The position numbers and the translations under genes were made by a program. The notes below the pieces were generated by a model. The model did not search any database, was not told the DNA's origin, and saw only the letters and a list, made by a program, of their open reading frames with translations. A DNA stretch of 64,000 bases from Desulfotignum sp. (lineage in GTDB: Bacteria; Desulfobacterota; Desulfobacteria; Desulfobacterales; Desulfobacteraceae): NCBI GenBank assembly GCA_021737695.1, contig JAIPDL010000004.1, positions 1 through 64,000 on the forward strand. The letters are read 5' to 3'. This document shows, piece by piece, positions 23,257 to 29,950 of the stretch. How positions within the stretch are numbered: the stretch's first letter is position 1; each line of letters opens with the position of its first letter.

Positions 23257-24231
23257 TTATCCGGACAATTCCAGTTTCAACGCAATGGAATAGAGCTTTG
23301 CCAGCCGTGTGACCATTTTGACCATTTCCTGGGAATAAGGGGTTGCCGGATTGGCAAGGATCAGCAACTTTCGGGGTCGGTGGTTGACGGGCAACGGAAT
23401 CGCCAGAATGCCATGTATCGGAATATGGCCCACAAGGAATCCGGGTGCGGGGGAATCTTTCGGCGGCTGAGTGGTGAAAATCGGCTTTCCCGTGTTGACG
23501 GCTTTTCCCAGAGAGTCGTGAATACCGTCCCTGCCGTCCGGGGACAGGGTCAAGGTCAAAGACGCAAGACCGCATTTTTCCGGATAGACTTGTTCGAAAC
23601 CCAGTTGAACGGTCGAATGAGAGGTTTCGGAAATCCTGGCCATGAATGCGTTGGCGCTTTGGGTCAGGTCGGCAGCAGCGGTCAGCACGATCCGGGAGAT
23701 CCGGCTGTAATCCGGGTCCTGCTGGGTGATGGCATCCGTGATGGCATCCATTTCCCGGGTTACCCGCAGTTGCCAGCCCAGTTCTTTTTCTGTCTGTTTC
23801 TGGGTGGTGATGTCGGTGAAAATCAGGGACAGGGCCTGGTGATCTGAAAAATCGGTTTCCATCACAGATGCCTTGATCCAGGTTCTGCCGCTGACTGCCT
23901 GGATGCGCAGATTTACCTGGGAAGCGCTCTTCATATCCTGAAGACCGTACTCGCTTTTTTCCATGATTTTCAGGTCTTCAGGATCCAATAGCGTGAAAAA
24001 GTCTCTGCCGGTCAATTCCTGTTCGTCAAACCCCAGTATCCCCGCAGCCACCCGGTTGATATCCACAATCCTTCCTATTTTGTCCAGGGTGAGATACCCC
24101 ATGGGAAGAGAATCGTAATTCCATGGGCTGCGGTCCCTGAGAAAATCACACAAATCTGCCGATTCTTGTGACGGTGGCTTTCCGCTGGTCAGTGAATTGT
24201 TTTCCCAAAACTCCGGCATGCTGACAGTCAA
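23257..24231 (-). CDS. PAS + GAF-like domain signalling protein without output domain
   Basis: PAS region DSLPMGYLTLDKIGRIVDINRVAAGILGFDEQELTGRDFFTLL; C-terminal GAF-like region. TTG start at 24231 supported by AGGAGG 7-8 nt upstream. Confidence 0.8.
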   Translation of the reverse strand: MTVSMPEFWENNSLTSGKPPSQESADLCDFLRDRSPWNYDSLPMGYLTLDKIGRIVDINRVAAGILGFDEQELTGRDFFTLLDPEDLKIMEKSEYGLQDMKSASQVNLRIQAVSGRTWIKASVMETDFSDHQALSLIFTDITTQKQTEKELGWQLRVTREMDAITDAITQQDPDYSRISRIVLTAAADLTQSANAFMARISETSHSTVQLGFEQVYPEKCGLASLTLTLSPDGRDGIHDSLGKAVNTGKPIFTTQPPKDSPAPGFLVGHIPIHGILAIPLPVNHRPRKLLILANPATPYSQEMVKMVTRLAKLYSIALKLELSG

Positions 24232-24281: not shown

Positions 24282-24297
24282 CGCAAATAGTGTGCCG
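24282..24297 (-). promoter_or_regulatory. Candidate sigma-54 promoter of the PAS/GAF gene
   Basis: Minus-strand CGGCACACTATTTGCG vs consensus TGGCACGNNNNTTGCW: GGCAC...TTGC exact, with GG/GC spacing correct. Predicted +1 near 24271, about 40 nt before the TTG start. Confidence 0.65.
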
Positions 24298-24481
24298 GAA
24301 CCCGTGGCAGGGTGCTTATATTGTAACTATCTGATTTCAATATAAATTTCTGTGTCGAACAAACGATCTGCAAAGCCAGGATTGCCCGGATTCATGGGCT
24401 GTTTTTCAGTGATCGTCAGGCATTTTTTCATAACCATTTGTAATCGTAAATAAAAGAAGCTGCACATAAAACTGGGCAATG

Positions 24482-24499
24482 TGCACAGATCTGTGTGCA
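24482..24499. promoter_or_regulatory. Dyad site 1, TGCACA-GATCTG-TGTGCA
   Basis: 18-bp dyad; a second copy of the same 6+6 arrangement lies at 24596. Another TGCACA (24461) / TGTGCA (24480) pair overlaps it. Confidence 0.65.
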
Positions 24500-24562
24500 A
24501 GGGGGTGGGTGGAGGTGGAGGGTTCCTGGCATAAACCCACCTTGTTTCCGGCGTTCAGATTT

Positions 24563-24640
24563 CCGGCTTCTGTTTTTCGTGCCACCTGAATCAGGTGCAC
24601 ATGAAGATGTGCAAACCGGAAGAAAAAAAACAGAAGCCGG
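24563..24640. repeat. Perfect 15-bp inverted repeat with 48-nt loop enclosing dyad site 2
   Basis: CCGGCTTCTGTTTTT (24563-24577) and AAAAACAGAAGCCGG (24626-24640). Confidence 0.9.
24596..24613. promoter_or_regulatory. Dyad site 2, TGCACA-TGAAGA-TGTGCA
   Basis: Same TGCACA-N6-TGTGCA layout as site 1 (7-bp arms TGCACAT/ATGTGCA). Confidence 0.65.
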
Positions 24641-24709: not shown

Positions 24710-24725
24710 TGGTCCAGGCCTTGCT
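24710..24725 (+). promoter_or_regulatory. Candidate sigma-54 promoter of the micropeptide ORF
   Basis: TGGTCCAGGCCTTGCT vs TGGCACGNNNNTTGCW: TGG and TTGCT exact, correct GG/GC spacing. Predicted +1 near 24736, about 55 nt before ATG. Confidence 0.65.
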
Positions 24726-24790
24726 ATGGGGTATAGGTAAAGATAATTGAAGGATGCAAATCATACCAAACCCCAAAAAGGAGACCTGAA

Positions 24791-24886
24791 ATGAAACATC
24801 TGTGGATCAACGTACTGGTTATCGGAACGATCGTAGCTGGATATGCATTGCCGGCACTGGCAGTAGGCGGAGGGGGACCTTATTAG
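24791..24886 (+). CDS. 31-aa putative secreted micropeptide
   Basis: ATG...TAG translation MKHLWINVLVIGTIVAGYALPALAVGGGGPY. RBS aaaaaggagacctgaaATG. Signal peptide with ALA|V cleavage site. Too short for the supplied ORF track. Confidence 0.75.
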   Translation: MKHLWINVLVIGTIVAGYALPALAVGGGGPY

Positions 24887-24890
24887 TCAT

Positions 24891-24911
24891 ACAAATTAAT
24901 AAATAATTTGT
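24891..24911. repeat. 8-bp inverted repeat just after the micropeptide stop codon
   Basis: ACAAATTA-ATAAA-TAATTTGT. Confidence 0.7.
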
Positions 24912-24927
24912 ACAGACAAATTCTGAA

Positions 24928-24967
24928 AACAGCGGCGCAGCCGGATAACGGCCGGGCCGCTGTTTTT
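24928..24967 (+). terminator. Rho-independent terminator after the micropeptide ORF
   Basis: AACAGCGGC...GCCGCTGTT with inner GCCG/CGGC pairing, then TTTTT. Confidence 0.85.
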
Positions 24968-25051
24968 ATGGACGTCTGGAAATCTTGCTTTCACGATTTT
25001 TGTGTGATAGTTTTTTTCTTCATAAAAAAATCGGTTGACAAGGGAGAGCAC

Positions 25052-26680
25052 ATGAAAGGTTTCCAGACCCTGTGTGGTATCATCCTGGGGTTGTTCCTGA
25101 TTGGATGCATTGCGGCCGGCTGCTCCGGCCCTGAAGAAGTGGATCATCCCGGAAATGAGCCGGAAAGCACGGCCCCGGTCCATGGCGGAATATACCGGAT
25201 ACCAATGCCCAGCAATCCAGCGACCCTGGACCCGGCCCGGGTCAAGGACCAATATGGCGCTGCGGTTGTCAGGCAGGTGTTTGACGGCCTGGTCCGGTTT
25301 GATTCCTATCTGACCATACTGCCGGCCCTGGCCCGGACCTGGCAGGTGGAGGCGGATGGCCGTGTGTACCGGTTTACGCTGCGAGAAAATGCCCGGTTTC
25401 ACAATGGTGATCTTGTGACAGCGGCGGATGTGGTTTTTTCCATCTCCCGGCTCCTGCGGCTGAGTCCAGCGCCGTCGGTTTTGCCCCATCTGATGATGAT
25501 CGTCGGGGCGGAAGCGTTCCGGAATCAGGACCAGGACCGGGTCGAGGGGTTGACGGTCATTGATCCGCACACAGTGGAAATTCGCCTGGTTTCTCCCCAT
25601 ATGCCACTGCTTACCGCCTTGGGCATGCATGAAGTGGCGATTTTGCCCCAAAAAATTGTGGAGGACTCAACGTCCGAATTTGCCAGACATCCCGTGGGAA
25701 CCGGGCCGTTCCGGTTTGTGACATGGGACCCGGACCGGTCCATCGATCTGGAGCGGTTTGACGATTATTTCGGAGAGACCGCCCTGCTGAAAGGGATTCA
25801 TTTCAAAATTTATGCCGAAGGACAGGATTCATCAGAACTGTCGGATTTTTTGGCAAAGAATATTGACGAAATGGCGGTCTACGGCGATGTCAGGGAAAAA
25901 CTGGGGGATCAGGCAGATGTGCAGTGGTTTCACCGGCCGTCCCTGAGCCTGTTTTTTTACGGCATGAACTGCGATCACCCCCACCTGACGCATCCGGAAT
26001 TCCGCAAAGCCCTGTCTGCTGCCATTGACCGGACCGCTTTTGTGACCCAGGTTTATAACGGGCAGTTTGATATTGCCAGGACCATTCTGCCCCCGGGCAT
26101 GCCCGGATACAGCCCGGCTTCCCCGCTGCCGGACAATGACCCGGATCTTGCCCGGCAGCATCTGGACCAGGCCCTGGCAACCGGTCTGGATCAGGTGCCG
26201 GAACTGGAGCTGGTGTCGGCATTCCAGACTTCCCGGGTGGCGGCTGAAATGGAGATGATCAAAGCGTTCTGGGCGGAACTCGGGGTTCACGTGCGGGTCC
26301 GGTACATCACGGACTGGACCGAGTTTGAAACCTATATCCGGTCGGATGCCGTGCAGCTCTACCGATATGCCTGGTTTGCTGACATGCCTGATCCGGACAG
26401 CATCCTTCATCCTTTGTTTGCATCCGATTCCCCCAACAATTTCATGCAGTATCATGATCCGGTCACGGATACCCTGCTCAGACAGGCCCGGGAAACCATC
26501 GATCCCGTGGCCCGGGCCGAAATTTACCGGGACACTGAAGCGCGCATCACCACGACCCTGCCATTGATTCCCTTGTTTTACATGAGCGTGGACCGGGTGT
26601 ATCAGCCCGATGTCAGAGGGATTCAGGTCAGTGCCCTGGGAGCCCATGCCATGCCCCTCAACCAGGTATGGGTGGATTGA
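25052..26680 (+). CDS. Family-5 (peptide/nickel type) ABC extracellular solute-binding lipoprotein
   Basis: Lipobox FLIGCIAAGC; GGIYRIPMPSNPATLDPARVKDQYGAAVVRQVFDGLVRFD; VYRFTLRENARFHNGDLVTAADVVFSISRLL. RBS agggagag. Confidence 0.93.
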   Translation: MKGFQTLCGIILGLFLIGCIAAGCSGPEEVDHPGNEPESTAPVHGGIYRIPMPSNPATLDPARVKDQYGAAVVRQVFDGLVRFDSYLTILPALARTWQVEADGRVYRFTLRENARFHNGDLVTAADVVFSISRLLRLSPAPSVLPHLMMIVGAEAFRNQDQDRVEGLTVIDPHTVEIRLVSPHMPLLTALGMHEVAILPQKIVEDSTSEFARHPVGTGPFRFVTWDPDRSIDLERFDDYFGETALLKGIHFKIYAEGQDSSELSDFLAKNIDEMAVYGDVREKLGDQADVQWFHRPSLSLFFYGMNCDHPHLTHPEFRKALSAAIDRTAFVTQVYNGQFDIARTILPPGMPGYSPASPLPDNDPDLARQHLDQALATGLDQVPELELVSAFQTSRVAAEMEMIKAFWAELGVHVRVRYITDWTEFETYIRSDAVQLYRYAWFADMPDPDSILHPLFASDSPNNFMQYHDPVTDTLLRQARETIDPVARAEIYRDTEARITTTLPLIPLFYMSVDRVYQPDVRGIQVSALGAHAMPLNQVWVD

Positions 26681-26718: not shown

Positions 26719-28584
26719 GTGAAGAAACCGGCATCTTTCCCCTTGCGCTACCGGTTTATGCTCATCAGCTCATTGATGCTGATTCTGCTTCTCGGGACCC
26801 TGGCCCTGGTGCTGGGGTCGCTTCAGACCCAAACCATTCAGGGCCGCATTGAAAAACAGGGGCTGGATATCGCCCGGAACCTGGCCGCCGTATCCAGAGA
26901 TCACTTCATCACCTACAATTATGTGGCGTTAGAAAAGCTGGCCAACCAGGTGGTGGATATTTCCGATATCCTGTATGTGGTATTTTATGACAAAGAGGGC
27001 CGGGTTGCCGGATACAGCCGTCGACCGGATCTCCAGAACCGGATCCTCACGGATGAGATCAGCCGGAAAGCGATGGATGCGACAACCCCCCTGGTGGTGA
27101 CCCAAAATCAGAAAAATTCCGGTCAACCGGTCCTGCATGTTGCGGTCCCGGTGATCCTGGCGGATTCCCAGGCCCGCTGGGGAACGATCCGGGTCTGTCT
27201 GTCCCTGGACCTGATGCAGCAGCAGATCCGGCAGACCCGATGGATCATCGGTGTGCTGGGGGTCATTGCTCTGGGAGCCGGGATACTGATATCCAACTGG
27301 ACGGCCCAGCGGGTGACCCGGCCCCTGGAAAAGCTGGCCGCCACCACCATGGATGCGGCCCGGGGCGATCTGACATTAAAGATTTTTGTCAACACCCGGG
27401 ATGAAGTGGAAATCCTGGCAGCCAATTTTTCATTCATGATCCAGGAAATTCTGGCCCAGAAGAAAAAGCTGGAGGAACAGCTCCAGGAGATCCGGCGGTG
27501 GCAGCAATACACGGAAAAAGTGCTGGTCACCATGGGGGACGGGCTGTTGGCCATTGACATGGCAGGAAGGGTCACCACAGTGAACCCGGCGGCCCGGCGC
27601 ATTCTGGAAATACCGGATGAGCGGCCTGTCCGGTCAAAGCCGGTATGGGATCTGATGGATCCGGGATCCCAGATGGCCGGGTATATCCGGGAGGTACTGG
27701 CGGATCCGTCTGTGGAGAAGCAGCGGGAGCTGGGCGCGTATGCCGGAAAAAACGAGCCAGTGATTCTGGTCAATGCCGGGGTCCTGGAAACCCGGCACAA
27801 AGCGTCCCGGGAGATCATTTTTTCTTTGACCGACATCACCGCGTTAAAGCGCCTGGAGGCCCAGGTCCGGCAGGCCCAGCGGCTGGCGGACTTAGGGATT
27901 CTGGCTGCGGGTATGGCCCATGAGATCCGCAATCCCCTTTCCGCCATCAAAACCTTTGTGGCTTTGCTGCCTAAAAAACTGGAAAAACCCGGATTTCTGG
28001 AAAAGTTCCAGCAGACCGTTCCCAGAGAGATCAACCGGCTCAATACCCTGATCGAAGAGATGCTGGAGCTGTCCCGGCCCCCCCGTTACCGGCTCAAGCC
28101 CACAGAGATCAGTGCCCTGGTTACCCATTGCACCACATTGCTGGAAGCGAATTTCAACGGCCGGGATATTTTTTTTCAGGCAGATCTCCCGGACGATCCC
28201 GCATGGGTCCAGGCAGATGCGGACCAGCTGGAAAAAGCATTTATCAACCTGCTTCAGAACGGGGCCCAGGCCATGCCCGGGGGCGGCACCCTTCAGGTGT
28301 CGGTTTCCCGGGATCAGGACCAGGTGGGGTTGGAATTCAGGGATACCGGGCAAGGCATGTCCCCGGAAATGGTCGACAACATCTTTAATCCGTTTTTCAC
28401 CACCAAGGCCAAAGGCACGGGCTTAGGCCTGGCCATCACCCATAAGGTGATCACGGAACACGGGGGCCGGATCAGTGTGACCAGCCGTGAGCACGAGGGG
28501 ACCTGTTTCACGGTTCGCCTGCCGGGGATCGGTCCGGCCCGTCTGTCCCTTCCTTCTGATCCGGCATCAGATCCAGGGACTTGA
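26719..28584 (+). CDS. Membrane sensor histidine kinase (periplasmic sensor, HAMP, PAS, HisKA, HATPase)
   Basis: Two TM segments, HAMP (NWTAQRVTRPLEKLAATTMDAARGDLTLKI), H-box MAHEIRNPLSAIKTF, ATPase GTGLGLAITHKVITEHGG. GTG start. Confidence 0.93.
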   Translation: MKKPASFPLRYRFMLISSLMLILLLGTLALVLGSLQTQTIQGRIEKQGLDIARNLAAVSRDHFITYNYVALEKLANQVVDISDILYVVFYDKEGRVAGYSRRPDLQNRILTDEISRKAMDATTPLVVTQNQKNSGQPVLHVAVPVILADSQARWGTIRVCLSLDLMQQQIRQTRWIIGVLGVIALGAGILISNWTAQRVTRPLEKLAATTMDAARGDLTLKIFVNTRDEVEILAANFSFMIQEILAQKKKLEEQLQEIRRWQQYTEKVLVTMGDGLLAIDMAGRVTTVNPAARRILEIPDERPVRSKPVWDLMDPGSQMAGYIREVLADPSVEKQRELGAYAGKNEPVILVNAGVLETRHKASREIIFSLTDITALKRLEAQVRQAQRLADLGILAAGMAHEIRNPLSAIKTFVALLPKKLEKPGFLEKFQQTVPREINRLNTLIEEMLELSRPPRYRLKPTEISALVTHCTTLLEANFNGRDIFFQADLPDDPAWVQADADQLEKAFINLLQNGAQAMPGGGTLQVSVSRDQDQVGLEFRDTGQGMSPEMVDNIFNPFFTTKAKGTGLGLAITHKVITEHGGRISVTSREHEGTCFTVRLPGIGPARLSLPSDPASDPGT

Positions 28585-29950
28585 TTTTCTGAATCAGGGT
28601 GTTTCTGTGAATGCCCAGCACCTGGGCGGTCTGGGTCTGGTTCCAGTGGCAGCCCTTCAGTGCCCGCAGGATATAATGCCGTTCAAAGGTCTGGCGGGCC
28701 TGGATCAGGCCTTTGCTCTCCCGGGCCTCTTCCGCGGCTTCCCGGCCGGAATCGGTATGGAACAGCAAATCAAAGGGCAGGTCTTTTTCATCAATGGGCT
28801 GCTGGTCGGACCCCAGCACCACCAGCCGCTCCATCAGGTTTTCCAGTTCCCGGATATTACCCGGCCAGGGATAGTCCTCCAGCACGGTCAGGGCGCCGGG
28901 GGTGATGCCGGTGATATGTTTGTTCATCCTGCGGTTGAACCGGTCCAGAAAATATCCGGCCAGCACAGGCACATCCCCTTTTCTTTTTCGCAGAGGCGGC
29001 AGGTCCACGGGGACCACATTGAGTCTGAAATACAGGTCATCTCTGAACTCTCTGGTTTTGATCATTTCATCCAGCCGGGTGTTGGTGGCGGCGATGATCC
29101 GGATATCCACCTTGATGGTCCGGTTGCCGCCCACCCGGGAGAATTCCCGTTCCTGGATGAACCGCAGCAGTTTGGCCTGGAATTCCGGTTTGAGGCAGCC
29201 GATTTCATCCAGAAACACCGTGCCCTGGTGGGCAAACTCGAATTTTCCCGTGGTCTGGCGGTATGCCCCGGTAAACGACCCTTTTTCATGGCCGAACAGT
29301 TCGGCTTCCATCAGTTCCGAGGGAATGGCCGCGCAGTTGATGGCCACAAACGGATTTTCCTTCCGAAGGCTCAAATTATGGATGGCCCGGGCGATCAGTT
29401 CTTTGCCCGTGCCGCTTTCGCCGGTGATCAGCACATTGCTGCCCGATCCGGCCACCTTTTCCATGAGCTGGAACACGGCGGTCATATGGGGAGACCGGGT
29501 GATGATTTTCGGCTCAAATGCACCGGCCGCCACCTGGGAGCGGTGATACCGGACTTCTCTGGCCAGGCGCTGCCGGTCCACGATTTTTTCCACCCGGTTC
29601 AGGATGATCTCATGGTCAAACGGCTTGGTGATATAGTCATAGGCTCCCAGTTTCAGAGAGTCCGTGGCTTCCTGGGCCCGGTCAACCGCTGACACCATGA
29701 TGACGTCCAAATCCGGGTCAATCTGCTTGATCTGTTTCAAAGTTTCAATACCATCCATTTCCGGCATCACAATATCCAGAAAGATCAGATCAAACCCGTG
29801 GGAACGGGTTTTTGAAAGCGCTTCAGGGCCGCTTTTTGCGCAGGTGACATCATAATCATCTTCCAGAATTTCCTTGAGTGCATCCCGGATGGCTTCATCA
29901 TCATCCACCACAAGAATCTGTACCGGGTTGGGATCGTCCTTGATATCCAC
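28508..29950 (-). CDS. NtrC-type sigma-54-dependent response regulator
   Basis: Receiver domain (ILVVDDDEAIRDALKEIL; D at FLDIVMPEMDG), AAA+ GESGTGKELIARAIHN, GSFTGAYRQT (GAFTGA loop), Fis-type HTH (WNQTQTAQVLGIHRNTLIQKIK). Confidence 0.96.
   Translation of the reverse strand: MDIKDDPNPVQILVVDDDEAIRDALKEILEDDYDVTCAKSGPEALSKTRSHGFDLIFLDIVMPEMDGIETLKQIKQIDPDLDVIMVSAVDRAQEATDSLKLGAYDYITKPFDHEIILNRVEKIVDRQRLAREVRYHRSQVAAGAFEPKIITRSPHMTAVFQLMEKVAGSGSNVLITGESGTGKELIARAIHNLSLRKENPFVAINCAAIPSELMEAELFGHEKGSFTGAYRQTTGKFEFAHQGTVFLDEIGCLKPEFQAKLLRFIQEREFSRVGGNRTIKVDIRIIAATNTRLDEMIKTREFRDDLYFRLNVVPVDLPPLRKRKGDVPVLAGYFLDRFNRRMNKHITGITPGALTVLEDYPWPGNIRELENLMERLVVLGSDQQPIDEKDLPFDLLFHTDSGREAAEEARESKGLIQARQTFERHYILRALKGCHWNQTQTAQVLGIHRNTLIQKIKSLDLMPDQKEGTDGPDRSPAGEP

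Follow-up and report, generated by a model that had tools for sequence, protein, structure and literature searches.

Response regulators of the NtrC, AtoC and ZraR type combine a receiver, a sigma-54 activation domain and a Fis-type helix-turn-helix (HTH), and NtrC enhancers take the form of paired dyads 100 to 230 bp upstream of a sigma-54 promoter. In the Gram-positive Agr, Com and Phr/Opp systems, a short exported pre-peptide is encoded beside its receptor, kinase and regulator, with positive feedback on its own production. Peptide quorum sensing is, to our knowledge, regarded as mainly Gram-positive, and we know of no sulfate reducer with an established native autoinducer. Further precedents are LuxP-LuxQ, TorT-TorS and ChvE-VirA, where a periplasmic binding protein is coupled to a membrane sensor kinase, and MgrB-PhoQ, where a tiny hydrophobic protein is controlled by the neighbouring two-component system.

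The locus described here, which lies in a 64-kb stretch of Desulfotignum DNA (the window), resembles each of these systems in part. A peptide gene is followed by the genes of a binding protein and a kinase and then by the convergent gene of an NtrC-type regulator (Table 1). The domain set of the regulator is that of NtrC, AtoC and ZraR, the paired dyads upstream of the right promoter recall NtrC enhancers in their placement, and the half-site contains TGCAC, which we take to be common to the NtrC consensus. Unlike in NtrC-type systems, the main target in the window is a micro-peptide gene and the site is TGCACA-N6-TGTGCA. The locus also has the genetic trait of peptide quorum sensing, namely, a conserved short pre-peptide gene beside a kinase and a regulator, with export predicted from the sequence. 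As in Agr, Com and Phr/Opp, the pre-peptide neighbours a putative receptor and there is apparent positive feedback; as in the Phr/Opp pathway, there is an OppA-like protein, OppA being the protein to which Phr peptides bind. The differences are the Gram-negative phylum, the sigma-54 output, the lack of a cytoplasmic peptide receptor and the nature of the proposed receptor, a periplasmic lipoprotein beside which we recognised no oligopeptide transporter genes in the window. Finally, as in LuxP-LuxQ, TorT-TorS and ChvE-VirA, a periplasmic binding protein is proposed to present its ligand to the kinase, but here the partners of this putative coupling would be an SBP_bac_5 protein and a genetically encoded peptide.

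Table 1. Features of the locus, with positions numbered from the first nucleotide of the window
Feature	Position	Strand	Remarks
Divergent PAS-GAF protein gene	23257-24231	-	Proposed second target
Left sigma-54 promoter candidate CGGCACACTATTTGCG	24282-24297	-	14/16 positions; would serve the divergent PAS-GAF gene
Third dyad TGCACATAAAACTGGGCA	24461-24478	n/a	One mismatch; 21 bp from site 1
Dyad site 1 TGCACAGATCTGTGTGCA	24482-24499	n/a	Distal enhancer (proposed); exact match; conserved in relatives L028 and L080
Dyad site 2 TGCACATGAAGATGTGCA	24596-24613	n/a	Proximal enhancer (proposed), 114 bp before right -24 element; exact match
Right sigma-54 promoter TGGTCCAGGCCTTGCT	24710-24725	+	15/16 positions; position and sequence conserved
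Ribosome-binding site of peptide gene, AGGAG	24779-24783	+	AGGAG-like sequence before nearly all homologues
Peptide gene MKHLWINVLVIGTIVAGYALPALA-VGGGGPY	24791-24886	+	Leader, predicted cut after Ala24, Gly-rich tail
Intrinsic terminator after peptide gene	24926-24967	+	Strong hairpin, then T run; RNA fold of 24887-24985
Oligopeptide-binding lipoprotein (SBP_bac_5)	25052-26680	+	PF00496, 1.3e-81; proposed periplasmic peptide receptor
Sensor histidine kinase	26719-28584	+	sCache, HAMP, PAS, HisKA, HATPase
NtrC-type response regulator	28508-29950	-	Receiver, sigma-54 activation domain, Fis-type HTH; proposed dyad-binding protein

The peptide gene has 31 codons, translates to MKHLWINVLVIGTIVAGYALPALAVGGGGPY and is missing from the list of open reading frames (ORFs) that accompanied the sequence. 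The initial annotation had referred to the right promoter; the promoter itself proved to be conserved, but the gene behind it had been overlooked. Neither Pfam nor NCBIfam returned a match to the peptide. Across 35 distinct peptide genes, differences amount to 0.32, 0.16 and 0.58 at the three codon positions, and pS is 0.70 versus a pN of 0.25, indicating selection at the protein level. Nearly all homologues are 30 to 31 codons long, and the residues around the predicted cut site are strikingly uniform, with Ala at -1 in 36 of 37, V, A or L at -3 in all 37, and Pro at -4 in 36 of 37. The tails mostly read xGGGGP or xGGGGPx (x being C, S, G, V, T or R), with GGGGN, GGGGD, GGGGR and GGAGP as further versions; among cultured carriers, the predicted tail is TGGGGP in Desulfocicer vacuolatum and CGGGGR in Desulfoferrobacter suflitae DRH4. 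Tandem peptide genes occur in several relatives: there are three in Desulfocicer (L095), four in L102 (one partly masked), two each in L104 and L105, and three in genome G750. Judging from these comparisons of sequence, the gene is almost certainly real, and its product is probably exported and cut. We also considered that the peptide might be a lipoprotein, some homologues having Cys at +1, and rejected this reading because the +1 residue may also be V, S, G, T, R, A or Y. As a separate observation, genome G097 carries extra peptide genes on separate contigs (L126 4189-4597, L127 4242-4547); two of these genes, with tails GGGGGPW and SGGGGPW, adjoin secreted-protein genes, with no binding protein in view.

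Of 98 genomes searched, 23 contain a homologue of the binding protein, and homologues also occur at 34 named loci of the genome collection, the carriers including Desulfotignum, Desulfobacula, Desulfocicer vacuolatum, Desulfogranum marinum, Desulforhabdus, Desulfoferrobacter and Desulfofustis. When the 34 named loci were examined together with L028 and the window, a peptide gene was seen upstream of the binding protein in 33 of the 36, one of them truncated by a contig end; the contigs of the remaining three start at or inside the binding-protein gene and thus hold no upstream DNA. The kinase gene always comes next after the binding-protein gene where the sequence allows. Conversely, a strong peptide hit was obtained in 20 of the 98 genomes, and every one of these 20 also encodes the binding protein. 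Three genomes have the binding protein and no hit to the peptide profile; two of these (G047 and G023) show a complete or truncated peptide gene by eye, while the third (G068) has merely a 36% binding-protein homologue.

A phylum-wide profile search returned more distant versions, whose binding proteins are 35 to 38% identical (L151, L152, L154 and L155) or 41% identical (L153). All five loci keep the order regulator, peptide, binding protein and kinase, with tails of EGGGY, EGGGW, TGGGW or QGGGGA, and in L152 to L155 the peptide gene has a perfect sigma-54 element before it, as does a small single-receiver gene that lies beyond the kinase gene. A single-domain receiver with a VDDDQGILDSF motif (L152 11044-11430, L093 1961-2329, L097 5042-5410, and others) is likewise found beside many of the closer loci, its gene often having a sigma-54 element of its own. 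Because the order is kept despite 35 to 41% identity, the unit of peptide, binding protein, kinase and regulator looks old and inherited as a block. An illustrative variant is L099 (9703-16876; same record as L160), where the tail reads ASGSSYP and four tandem binding-protein genes, their products 46 to 50% identical to the one in the window, lie between kinase and peptide gene; dyads and regulator are retained. This single case could reflect co-evolution of ligand and receptor.

What might the binding protein bind? Its lipobox, IAAGC, can be read in the sequence, and its structural model (pLDDT 88) is nearest in fold to oligopeptide-binding proteins, with Bacillus subtilis OppA carrying a PhrE-derived pentapeptide (8are) as top match. 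In addition, D444 (in WFADMPDPDS) aligns with the Asp of the GD..DP / WxxDxxDP motif of OppA and DppA. In both of these proteins, the Asp of the WxxDxxDP motif anchors the N-terminus of the peptide. These predicted features fit a periplasmic peptide receptor, the ligand of which we infer.

We propose that the components form a loop. The phosphorylated regulator, bound to the dyads, would activate two divergent sigma-54 promoters. From the right promoter, the 31-residue pre-peptide would be made, exported and cut after Ala24, releasing a short Gly-rich peptide (VGGGGPY here; xGGGGP(x), GGGGN/D/R or EGGGY/W elsewhere), which the oligopeptide-binding lipoprotein would capture in the periplasm. 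The loaded lipoprotein, together with the Cache domain of the kinase, would then activate the kinase, and phosphorylation of the regulator would yield more peptide, that is, an autoinducing, quorum-sensing-like loop. Outputs would be the divergent signalling gene here and giant secreted surface or RHS-type proteins in some relatives. The dyads, their geometry and conservation, the peptide gene, the gene order and, in relatives, the remote dyads at sigma-54 promoters are established at the level of sequence. Export, binding and feedback are the steps that we infer.

On balance, we lean toward this whole account of an autoinducing peptide-signalling loop run through the dyads, and we find it rather likely that the peptide is the ligand of the binding protein and kinase, thereby closing the loop. 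The tandem peptide copies, the preserved gene order and the OppA-like fold with its conserved Asp all favour the loop. Two observations on the peptide speak against it. The leader is strongly conserved, whereas signal sequences usually drift, and could thus be functional itself; in addition, the Gly-rich tail hardly varies from species to species, although diversification is frequent among known peptide pheromones.

The unusual conservation of the leader also lends weight to a different role for the peptide, as an uncleaved small inner-membrane protein that tunes the adjacent kinase in the manner of MgrB and PhoQ, with the dyads providing local feedback and no signal passing between cells. That the peptide gene always adjoins the kinase, and stands under the regulator of that kinase, would suit such a role, and a tiny hydrophobic protein controlled by its neighbouring two-component system is what MgrB represents. 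However, the resemblance does not extend to the signal-peptidase-like site, whose -3 and -1 residues are nearly invariant and followed by a conserved Gly-rich tail, nor to the tandem copies and the obligate partner, an oligopeptide-binding protein. We therefore regard an uncleaved membrane protein as unlikely.

We also think it improbable that the cell secretes the peptide as a product or effector (an antimicrobial, say, or a precursor from which a modified peptide is made) and that the binding protein and kinase sense other ligands such as environmental peptides. SBP_bac_5 proteins do take many ligands and secreted proteins are among the remote targets in relatives, so the peptide could be one output of several. 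Yet peptide gene and receptor genes go together throughout the phylum, the peptide gene is among the few targets in the genome of the window, and its neighbours in the window include no gene that we recognised as serving maturation or transport. A peptide that signals back to its own kinase remains our preferred reading.

Control of the proposed signalling loop would run through the dyads. The initial annotation had described a pair of 18-bp dyads at 24482 and 24596, and both are exact copies of TGCACA-N6-TGTGCA at these positions, with starts 114 bp apart. Their centres lie ~106 and ~220 bp from the right -24 element and ~194 and ~308 bp from the left one, within several bases of the distances first given. 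An extra TGCACA/TGTGCA pair (24461/24480), reported at the same time, is present as well but is better read as the third, one-mismatch dyad of Table 1; its arrangement with site 1 recurs in relative L080. The two exact dyads are the only ones in the window, and none of 100 dinucleotide shuffles contained any. The whole-genome motif scan that had been suggested gave the same answer: in 4.21 Mb, there are two exact copies, both at this locus, compared to 0.1 to 0.25 expected. With two mismatches allowed, the window holds four matches against a chance mean of 3.1, which is not above chance, and the significance of the dyads is therefore based on exact matches, scarcity in the genome, position and conservation. 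(The genome search also had a control with the mirrored pattern; that pattern contains CpG, and the control, unfair at two mismatches, was left unused.) The window has 22 TGCACA hexamers in all, six of which fall inside this 153-bp stretch.

The initial annotation had tied its claim to conservation of the motif at orthologous loci. Indeed, the motif is retained: all 30 loci that have a peptide gene and an upstream sigma-54 match carry one or more dyads with no more than one mismatch. In 17 of these 30, the proximal dyad starts 113 to 116 bp before the sigma-54 promoter; other loci show dyad spacings of about 185-187, 193-196, 205, 217-218 or 229-230 bp, tandem dyads 19 to 21 bp apart are common, and Desulfocicer has one dyad 105 bp from the promoter. 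Information over the 17 loci is 1.95 bits for the half-sites, somewhat inflated by the fact that these loci were chosen by the dyad itself, 0.91 for the spacer and 0.55 for the flanks. Exact dyads also track the system across genomes, being found in 18 of 20 genomes with it versus 4 of 20 relatives without it (p = 1.7e-5). The single exact dyads in genomes without the system were treated as chance occurrences; four of the five are inside coding sequence, and the fifth (L162) is just upstream of a long ORF, with no recognised sigma-54 element.

As for the protein that would bind the dyads, the regulator encoded in the window matches Response_reg, Sigma54_activat and HTH_8 in Pfam, which fits a sigma-54 enhancer-binding protein. 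It scores below the curated cut-offs of the NtrC model TIGR01818 (422 bits; cut-off, 558.6) and the AtoC model NF008469 (452 bits; cut-off, 714), as well as those for ZraR and the PEP-CTERM regulator. Orthologues (E <= 1e-150) are present in 8 of 39 genomes, all 8 of which carry the binding protein. The recognition helix reads IHRNTL (once VHRNTL) in every readable locus with TGCACA dyads, L153 included, and changes to INRNTL in L152, ISRNYL in L154 and ISRIYL in L155, from all of which the dyads are absent. The kinase and regulator genes, we note in passing, are convergent, with 3' ends that overlap by 77 bp (28508-28584).

Conservation, co-occurrence and the covariation of helix and dyad together support the original claim that the dyads are enhancers of the adjacent NtrC-type regulator, and they are very probably binding sites of the 28508-29950 product. 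The exception is L151, where the helix is unchanged and there is no clear dyad; it slightly weakens the covariation and, together with the many related activators that the genome encodes (196 first-look candidates), would be in keeping with binding by some other regulator. With regulator and dyads co-occurring, the regulator gene inside the same cluster and a helix change going with dyad loss in three distant loci, we consider another regulator very unlikely. That the dyads are functionless chance palindromes, as the chance-level number of loose matches in the window might suggest, is refuted by the comparative data, in which exact matches, conservation and fixed geometry coincide, and we give this reading practically no credence.

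Sigma-54-type matches are likewise at chance level across the window, so that the reality of both promoters rests on conservation. At the divergent position, full-consensus matches (TGGCACAATCATTGCT and similar) are found in many relatives. Another recurring match, TGGTGTTTTGGTTGCC near -255, was discarded as a promoter since it lies inside the peptide gene (codons for VLVAG). In many relatives, the divergent position is occupied by kinase-receiver or single-receiver genes, the kinase-receiver type being that of Desulfobacula-type loci. The divergent gene of the window, with PAS and GAF domains only, may be a reduced form of the kinase-receiver protein.

With no further exact dyad beyond the two in the 4.21 Mb searched, the output in the genome of the window is perhaps small. 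Some relatives, by contrast, have extra dyads before other genes, several of them with sigma-54 elements, and the targets, assigned here by domain names only, are mostly large. In L114, the remote dyad precedes the gene of a 1,233-aa cadherin/Ig/PKD/teneurin-TTR protein with a pretoxin HINT domain. In L117/L171, the targets are a subtilase and a 1,964-aa cadherin/FG-GAP protein, the gene of the latter being followed by one for a protein with SpvB- and TcdB-middle-like domains; in genome G779 (L168/L172), a dyad and a sigma-54 element precede the gene of a related protein of 1,885 aa. Similarly, L120 and L123 have teneurin-TTR proteins with perfect sigma-54 elements behind their dyads, L124 has an RHS-repeat protein and L119 an FG-GAP protein. 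The tandem exact dyads of genome G074 (L115 4119-4156, L116 4022-4252) have no obvious sigma-54 element or secreted-protein target. In those relatives, such predicted targets point to a circuit in command of secreted proteins of contact or surface type.

There is nothing unusual in enhancer dyads for an NtrC-type protein, but the module that they serve is apparently new. We found no description of this system in the literature on peptide signalling, sulfate reducers, GGGGP, Rhs and sigma-54, in a search that covered few subscription papers, and there is a reasonable chance that this peptide-responsive two-component module is the first of its sort in Desulfobacterota. It is, to our minds, an even call whether the Gram-negative Desulfobacterota, sulfate-reducing and related, possess here a dedicated peptide-pheromone system in which a signal-peptidase-released Gly-rich peptide of 5 to 7 residues would act through a periplasmic OppA-type lipoprotein and a Cache kinase on sigma-54/NtrC autoinduction and, in some species, on giant secreted RHS/teneurin/cadherin proteins, amounting to density-controlled contact or competition. 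The locus adds a conserved family of ~30-codon genes without Pfam or NCBIfam match and, if the loop is true, would offer concrete predictions for the signal, its receptor, the regulator and the DNA site in cultured strains, Desulfocicer vacuolatum DSM 3385 being one.
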